From NCBI GenBank assembly GCA_947474565.1, contig CANJIS010000004.1, positions 80,315 through 144,314 on the forward strand: a DNA stretch of 64,000 nucleotides. The letters run 5' to 3'. The position numbers and the translations under genes are program-made. This DNA is from Alphaproteobacteria bacterium (GTDB lineage Bacteria; Pseudomonadota; Alphaproteobacteria; Micropepsales; Micropepsaceae). Positions 62,524 to 64,000 of the stretch are shown piece after piece (within the stretch, counting starts at the first letter, position 1; each line of letters opens with the position of its first letter). The notes under the pieces are model-generated. The model was not told the origin of the DNA. It was given only the letters and a program-made list of their open reading frames with translations, and made no database searches.

Positions 62524-62576
62524 TCGAAAATCGACCATTTTCGAAAGTCAAGGCAGAGTTGCATTACCAAATGCAA
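62524..62576. repeat. Two further perfect inverted repeats upstream of the Lys-rich peptide gene
   Basis: TCGAAAAT-CGACC-ATTTTCGA (62524-62544) and TTGCATT-ACCA-AATGCAA (62559-62576) are perfect dyads. With the hairpin after gatB they make three dyads in 156 bases. The stretch is AT-rich (62461-62580 is about 36% G+C by hand count). No open reading frame of note was seen. Candidate leader or regulatory DNA for the Lys-rich peptide. Confidence 0.4.
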
Positions 62577-62649
62577 GTCTTTCATATTGATGACGTTTTG
62601 GGGGGTGACCGAGTCGCCTCAGACCAAACAAACGCTAGAGGAGTTGAAC

Positions 62650-62718
62650 ATGGCTGCGAAGAAAAAGGCTAAGAAGGTTGCGAAGAAGAAGACCGCCAAG
62701 AAGAAGAAGAAGAAGTAA
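62650..62718 (+). CDS. 22-residue lysine-rich peptide (histone H1-tail-like)
   Basis: ATG 62650 to TAA 62716-62718 encodes MAAKKKAKKVAKKKTAKKKK plus two lysines, 14 Lys in 22 residues. A strong ribosome site AGAGGAG (62637-62643) lies six bases before the ATG; the track's longer ORF start at 62485 has no such site. The composition recalls histone-H1-like tails and the AlgP/Hc1 types. No enzymatic function is possible. It could bind DNA or RNA, or be the remnant of a larger gene, but the ribosome site argues for expression. Confidence 0.6.
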   Translation: MAAKKKAKKVAKKKTAKKKKKK

Positions 62719-62802
62719 TTAAGGCGGATTGACTTCACGTCAATCTAAGCTTCACGGATACCTTCTGGTACTTTTCAGGATGTAACCGATGAACAAGGCA
62801 AA

Positions 62803-62833
62803 GGCCGCGGTCATCCGAAAGGGTACCGCGGCC
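62803..62833. terminator. Perfect 9-bp hairpin downstream of the Lys-rich peptide gene
   Basis: GGCCGCGGT (62803-62811) pairs with ACCGCGGCC (62825-62833) around a 13-base loop, about 85 bases after the peptide stop. The GC stem is strong, but only CCAAGCCCGTTTTGG follows, so it is a moderate terminator candidate. Confidence 0.45.
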
Positions 62834-62860
62834 AAGCCCGTTTTGGTGACATCCCCTGGG

Positions 62861-62879
62861 CCTATTGCAGTGCAATAGG
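62861..62879. promoter_or_regulatory. 19-base palindrome upstream of the GST gene
   Basis: CCTATTGCA-G-TGCAATAGG is a perfect dyad around a single base, 41 bases upstream of the GST start. The length and symmetry fit an operator for a dimeric regulator. No regulator gene lies adjacent. Confidence 0.4.
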
Positions 62880-62920
62880 ACGGGCGTAAAACATCGGGGC
62901 CCTCATTCAGCAGAGCCCCC

Positions 62921-63649
62921 ATGCCCCCCAAATCCCGCAAAGCCCCCGTCAAAGCCAAGCGTTCCAAAGCCGCCCCCATCGCGCTTTATTACTGGCCCAC
63001 CTCCAACGGCCATAAGATCAGCATCCTTCTGGAAGAGCTGAAGCTCCCTTATGAGGTGAAGCCGGTGAATATCGGCGCCGGGGAGCAATTCGCCCCCGCC
63101 TTCCTCAAAATCTCGCCCAACAACCGCATGCCGGCGATTATCGACCCCAAGGGTCCGGGCGGAAAACCGATCTCGGTCTTCGAGTCCGGGGCGATCATGC
63201 AGTATCTCGCCCGCAAGGCCGGCAAATTCTATCCCAGGGACGAACGCCAGCGCGTGGCGGTGGAGGAATGGCTGTTTTGGCAGGTGGGCGGGCTGGGGCC
63301 CATGGCCGGCCAGGCCAATCATTTCATCACCTATGCCAAGCAAGACGTGCCCTACGCCAAGAAGCGTTACGCCGATGAGGTGCATCGCCTGTTCGGGGTG
63401 ATGAACAAGCGGCTGGCCGCCCGCAAATTCCTGGCCGGCGCCTATTCCATCGCCGACATGGCCTGCTTGAGTTGGGTCAAGTCTTCCACCCGCTTCCAGG
63501 CGCTGGATGAATTTCCCCATCTCGCTGCCTGGTATGCGCGGCTGATGAAGCGTTCCGCCGTCAAGCGCGGCATGGAAGTGGGGGCTGAATTGCGTAAGCC
63601 CATGAGCGATGAACAGAAGAAAGTCTTGTTCGGACAGAGGACGCGCTAA
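62921..63649 (+). CDS. Glutathione S-transferase (YfcG/Nu-class-like)
   Basis: This 242-residue protein starts with a basic extension (MPPKSRKAPVKAKRSKAAP, unusual for the family) before the thioredoxin-like domain ALYYWPTSNGHKISILLEEL. PNNRMPAIIDPKG and SVFESGAIMQYLA are the glutathione-binding segments, and FLAGAYSIADMACLSWV the helical domain N-cap. The TSNGHKI active-site Thr/Asn fits the YfcG-type disulfide-reducing GSTs. No strong ribosome site is seen before ATG 62921. Confidence 0.88.
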   Translation: MPPKSRKAPVKAKRSKAAPIALYYWPTSNGHKISILLEELKLPYEVKPVNIGAGEQFAPAFLKISPNNRMPAIIDPKGPGGKPISVFESGAIMQYLARKAGKFYPRDERQRVAVEEWLFWQVGGLGPMAGQANHFITYAKQDVPYAKKRYADEVHRLFGVMNKRLAARKFLAGAYSIADMACLSWVKSSTRFQALDEFPHLAAWYARLMKRSAVKRGMEVGAELRKPMSDEQKKVLFGQRTR

Positions 63650-63659
63650 CTTCCTTTTT

Positions 63660-63724
63660 GTCATGCCCGCGAAAGCGGGCATCCAGTTCGTCATGCTGGT
63701 TTCCCGCTTACTCGGGAATGACAC
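63660..63724. repeat. Dispersed palindromic repeat of the MPAFAGMT type
   Basis: GTCATGCCCGCGAAAGCGGGCATCCAG opens a 65-bp unit ending CTCGGGAATGACAC, with inner palindrome GCCCGC-GAAA-GCGGGC. The minus strand reads MTNWMPAFAGMT, which I know as a widespread proteobacterial repeat often mistaken for protein N-termini. It lies 11 bases after the GST stop. Only this one copy was recognised in the window. Confidence 0.75.
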
Positions 63725-63852: not shown

Positions 63853-64000
63853 TGATCTGCCCCCTTCCAAGTGGTCCAGGGACTATCATATTGGAACCTT
63901 GGAGGGAGATTTGGAATGGGCCGCAGGCATCAGCCTGATGAAGTTATTGGCAAGCTGCGGGAGGCGGAGATTGTGCTTTCGCAGGGCGGGTCGGTTGCGG
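63853..64000 (+). mobile_element. Left end of an IS3-family insertion sequence, truncated by the window edge
   Basis: A transposase gene begins at 63916. Upstream at 63853 is TGATCTGCCCCCTTCC, which looks like the terminal repeat of IS3-family elements (5'-TG start). A near copy, TGATCGGCCCCCACTGAG, lies about 20 bases earlier, so the exact boundary is uncertain. The rest of the element and the other end are outside the window. Confidence 0.7.
63916..64000 (+). CDS. IS3-family transposase OrfA-like, N-terminal fragment at the window edge
   Basis: The frame reads MGRRHQPDEVIGKLREAEIV, then LSQGGSVA, and leaves the window at base 64000. This is the usual start of the helix-turn-helix transposase subunit (OrfA) of IS3-family elements, where a leading basic stretch precedes the EEIIGKLRE-like helix. 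GGAGGGAG lies 8 bases upstream of the ATG. Whether the full transposase is intact cannot be seen. Confidence 0.85.
   Translation, partial: MGRRHQPDEVIGKLREAEIVLSQGGSVA

Follow-up and report, generated by a model that had tools for sequence, protein, structure and literature searches.

A conserved lysine- and alanine-rich micro-ORF downstream of gatB, a candidate gene for a stand-alone histone-tail-like peptide in Alphaproteobacteria

The window, as we call the whole stretch of 64,000 nucleotides that was analysed, carries between gatB and a glutathione transferase (GST) gene a complete micro-ORF, MAAKKKAKKVAKKKTAKKKKKK, whose 22 residues include 14 Lys and not a single acidic residue. Its composition is almost entirely Lys and Ala, and the copy in the window is Pro-free. 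The initial annotation had pointed to such a complete frame, rich in Lys to the same extent, and to a strong ribosome site preceding it, and both the frame and the site (AGAGGAG, with a gap of 6 nt from GGAG to the ATG) were borne out. The features of the locus are the following.

62559 to 62588, + strand: putative promoter, TTGCAT (62559-62564), 18 nt, CATATT (62583-62588); conserved across the genus.
62595 to 62630, + strand: 5' leader GTTTTGGGGGG with hairpin GGTGAC-CGA-GTCGCC within an outer stem; conserved sequence, shared two-stem fold.
62637 to 62643, + strand: Shine-Dalgarno sequence AGAGGAG; GGAGT invariant in 34 distinct aligned leaders.
62650 to 62718, + strand: micro-ORF MAAKKKAKKVAKKKTAKKKKKK, from ATG at 62650 to TAA at 62718; orthologues in 37 loci.
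62727 to 62745, + strand: small hairpin GATTGAC-ttcac-GTCAATC directly 3' of the stop, seen in the sequence; comparable hairpin in many congeners.
62803 to 62844, + strand: terminator-like hairpin GGCCGCGGT...ACCGCGGCC, then AAGCCCGTTTT; single copy per genome in the 6 genomes searched.

The DNA upstream of the micro-ORF had been described as AT-rich and structured. The first part of this description holds, as GC drops there from about 0.60 to about 0.48, while the second stands only in part: shuffled versions of the window's leader fold just as well (z -0.3), yet the two-stem fold was found again in most orthologues. Since the covariation detected with RNAalifold is also modest, the leader structure is suggestive only. 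Where the leader pattern was found in genomes of the same genus, it occurred once per genome. A sigma-70 consensus scan called no match at the putative promoter TTGCAT-N18-CATATT. Downstream, the GGCCGCGG...CCGCGGCC hairpin was present in one copy in each of the 6 genomes searched and is retained where the GST gene is absent; as its T tract is weak, termination at this hairpin is presumed. Judged from its sequence, each copy of the locus thus looks like a unit of its own, composed of a promoter-like element, a leader with a hairpin, a Shine-Dalgarno sequence, the ORF and a 3' hairpin.

It was necessary to consider whether such a short frame could be fortuitous. Among the ATG-started ORFs of 18-60 aa in the window, this is the only one with at least 50% Lys, and 9.6 Mb of Markov sequence of the window's dinucleotide content contained none, which rules out a chance ORF. 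A search for a second copy in the same genome found the window copy alone. A 77-aa TTG-started frame overlaps the micro-ORF in frame; we reject it as a real gene because the conserved features upstream of the ATG are those of a promoter and a leader, not of a protein. A second small ORF at 62789-62878 (MNKAKAAVIRKG...) was also discarded, as it overlaps the 3' palindrome and is not kept as a free protein in relatives.

Genomes of the same genus were searched with the intergenic DNA, the leader pattern and the GatB C-terminus. This gave 37 readable loci, namely those of 36 genomes of the genus, the window's included, and that of a near relative, Alphaproteobacteria bacterium YM_63_11. Outside this set are one genome whose ORF lies at a contig end (G019), one whose contig stops 252 nt after gatB (G023) and one, 67% complete, in which gatB was not found (G031). 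In all 37 loci a Lys-rich ORF stands behind a ribosome site about 230-440 bases downstream of gatB, so the ORF and its ribosome site, which the initial annotation had proposed to look for after gatB in relatives, are kept in every relative examined. Loss of either in relatives, or an origin as the broken end of a longer gene, had been named there as grounds for abandoning the idea; neither was encountered in the 37 loci.

The length of the ORF is another matter. It is 21-32 aa in 29 of the 37 loci and 52, 52, 61, 63, 100, 113, 113 and 116 aa in the remaining eight, while the alternative upstream starts of the 21- and 26-aa forms would give 48 and 40 aa. The long orthologues, which belong to other species of the genus, share the same leader and are K/R/A-rich throughout, resembling a histone H1 tail. 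On the GatB tree the short form is spread over most clades, and one well supported clade (G029, G005, G020, G024) is long. Because this gene, behind the same leader, codes for 52-116 aa in congeners, the micro-ORF belongs to a family of variable length in which very short forms are the rule. The earlier view of a free-standing histone-tail-like peptide is therefore sustained as regards a conserved micro-gene after gatB, with the amendment that the short form is just one end of this family. A pseudogene or broken gene end is ruled out, as the 21-32 aa form is intact and has a ribosome site in those 29 loci, and past the stop there is no Lys-rich continuation, only hairpins. Two congeners (G061 and G030) encode, at other loci (L169 1197-1610 and L170 1564-2031), proteins of 137 and 155 aa whose N-terminus is Lys/Ala-rich and of the MAAKKK type and whose C-terminal parts are similar (AALEGPEG).

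The main evidence for the peptide as the product comes from selection at the codon level. Summed over the 37 proteins, of 21-116 aa, there are 658 Lys, 346 Ala and 100 Arg, and neither Asp nor Glu occurs. Their Lys codons are 562 AAG and 96 AAA, and the change from AAG to GAG, which is equally easy, was never seen. Ten independent pairs of closely related short forms together differ by 54 changes, of which 24 are synonymous and 30 nonsynonymous, where 22% synonymous would be expected (p 1.7e-4). Between the Lys blocks, Ala, Thr and Val interchange freely; acidic and aromatic residues are absent. These patterns show selection on the peptide, for Lys and against acidic residues. That length changes in threes is weaker evidence for coding, because AAG repeats slip by three without selection.

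We consider it probable, on sequence grounds and with some reserve, that the micro-ORF is a genuine gene with its own short mRNA, and that its product is a disordered polycation which binds nucleic acid by charge, most likely as a small auxiliary factor condensing the nucleoid or RNA. In this scenario, a short mRNA, with a putative start near 62595 and end near 62845, would be transcribed between gatB and the GST gene and translated into the acid-free 22-aa polycation with its 14 Lys. The peptide would then bind nucleic acid in the way of the tails of histone H1, AlgP and chlamydial Hc2, but without a globular domain, and its dose, rather than its fold or exact length, would matter. A disordered, charge-driven nucleic-acid binder is suggested because the composition, the absence of acidic and aromatic residues, the ease with which Ala, Thr and Val replace one another and the tolerated length all fit it. 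Composition alone fits DNA, rRNA, polyphosphate or membrane targets alike and cannot tell them apart; from among nucleoid, ribosome and polyphosphate, we favour the nucleoid as the target.

Other explanations need to be weighed against this one. Ribosomal micro-proteins such as bTHX and eL41 are of about 25 aa, strongly basic and Arg-rich, with a fixed length and specific residues. A ribosome-associated micro-protein of this kind, binding rRNA, would agree with the size and charge of the peptide, with the presence in each genome of one leader and one ribosome site dedicated to it, and with its strong retention in the genus; such a role nevertheless seems unlikely to us, as the range of 21-116 aa and the free A/T/V exchange do not suit a protein of fixed length and specific residues, and among the 80 named alphaproteobacterial loci the ORF was found after gatB in no more than 10. 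Alternatively, the RNA itself could be functional, as a small or dual-function RNA, with the peptide being secondary. The leader and the 3' hairpin are indeed well conserved and unique per genome; still, the codon-level selection for Lys, the lack of acidic codons, the modest covariation and the absence of any Rfam family match in the window at the gathering threshold make this quite improbable. A polycation that binds polyphosphate or granules has a proposed precedent in AlgP, which has an H1-like tail and associates with polyphosphate granules (PMC9239181), but the micro-protein has no granule-binding domain, and we judge the chance of such a role to be slight.

The downstream gene invites one more explanation, a leader peptide that controls the GST, for example by lysyl-tRNA sensing. 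The GST ORF of the window, which is PRK13972-like and scores below that model's cut-off, begins 202 nt after the micro-ORF, and of the 35 loci that could be tested, 21 have a GST downstream. However, in the other 14 of the 35 the ORF is kept without a GST, so linkage is not constant and a general leader-peptide role is ruled out; moreover, GST is not a lysine gene, and elsewhere related ORFs adjoin unrelated genes. We thus give this reading hardly any credence. Around the same gene, in several congeners (L120, L031, L013) the 3' palindrome is in frame with the GST and supplies it with an N-terminal tail rich in Lys and Ala; in the window (62789-62978) a stop lies between. After the GST gene, at 63660-63700, there is a palindromic GTCATGCCCGCGAAAGCGGGCATCCAG, an element of the dispersed-repeat type, and at 63916-64000 an apparent start of an IS3-type transposase OrfA (MGRRHQPDEVIGKLREAEIVLSQGG) is truncated by the window end.

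Beyond the genus, the 10 named gatB loci (out of 80) with a downstream Lys-rich ORF, here of 22-45 aa, are those of the near relative YM_63_11 (L032), of eight Bradyrhizobium-type/Xanthobacteraceae genomes (L036, L041, L061, L064, L067, L070, L072, L083) and of a distant genome, L104 (GatB 63% identical), where the order is gatB, Lys-rich ORF and GST (63% identical). In Bradyrhizobium-type genomes (L036, L061, L064, L067, L070, L072, L083) and in L104, a hairpin with an apical CGATTC lies 5' of the ORF and resembles the leader hairpin of the window's genus, whose tip is CGA(G/T)TCG. The DNA of the Bradyrhizobium version, searched against 190 genomes of the class, gave weak K-rich matches only. 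In other alphaproteobacterial families, K/A ORFs of 16-26 aa with a ribosome site occur at other loci (L146, L147, L149, L150, L163): MAAKKKAKKKTAKKKK (L146) and MAAKKKAKKKAAKKKK (L147) follow an ftsY-like gene and those of L149 and L150 precede an XRE/S24-like regulator, these neighbours being named by reading the sequence rather than by family search, and terminator-like hairpins follow the ORFs in all four. The class-wide pattern search mixed real ORFs with many AT-rich chance matches, and its counts are unusable as a frequency. It is conceivable, though we would not call it probable, that stand-alone histone-tail peptides of 16-45 aa, nearly pure in Lys/Ala, form a class that is widespread in Alphaproteobacteria. 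Each would be encoded by a hairpin-framed mRNA of its own, and the peptides would tune nucleoid or RNA condensation and freely expand or shrink into full H1-like proteins.

The known H1-like proteins of bacteria are either long tails or long proteins made of repeats; the locus described here is a dedicated, conserved gene for a 22-residue tail alone. As a single locus spans 21-116 aa within one genus, it offers a natural length series for asking what amount of polycation is required for binding the nucleoid or RNA. The class may have been widely missed, because its genes fall under the usual gene-calling limits and trypsin cuts its products into pieces too short to be seen in routine proteomics.

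How, then, should the micro-protein be classified? The 37 proteins are H1-like in composition, being Lys/Ala-rich, acid-free and of variable length. No Pfam or NCBIfam model matched above its cut-off; with NF038053 (bacterial histone H1-like Hc1/Hc2/BpH1), the window peptide gave no match and a 113-aa orthologue reached E 0.78 and 10 bits against a cut-off of 80. A literature search by sequence string returned nothing, and we found no published description among the papers searched. Since curated families do not cover the micro-protein and none of the papers searched contains its sequences, we file it, on our analysis, as working like an H1 tail rather than as a member of the H1-like family. 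With bTHX and eL41 it shares small size and strong basicity, but these are Arg-rich and fixed in length, whereas the micro-ORF family is free in length and mainly Lys/Ala. It also resembles the H1-like proteins of the Hc2 (HctB) and Bordetella BpH1 type, which are Lys/Ala-rich and length-variable through Lys-rich repeats; Hc2, which binds DNA, varies through such repeats from 165 to 237 aa (PMC2848022), against the 22 aa of the window peptide. The C-terminal KPAA tails of AlgP and PhaF are likewise disordered, H1-like DNA-binding tails, the DNA binding being that of AlgP, whose KPAA-type peptides bind DNA (PMC9239181); those tails, however, are Pro-rich and attached to an N-terminal domain, while the window peptide is the Pro-free tail alone.
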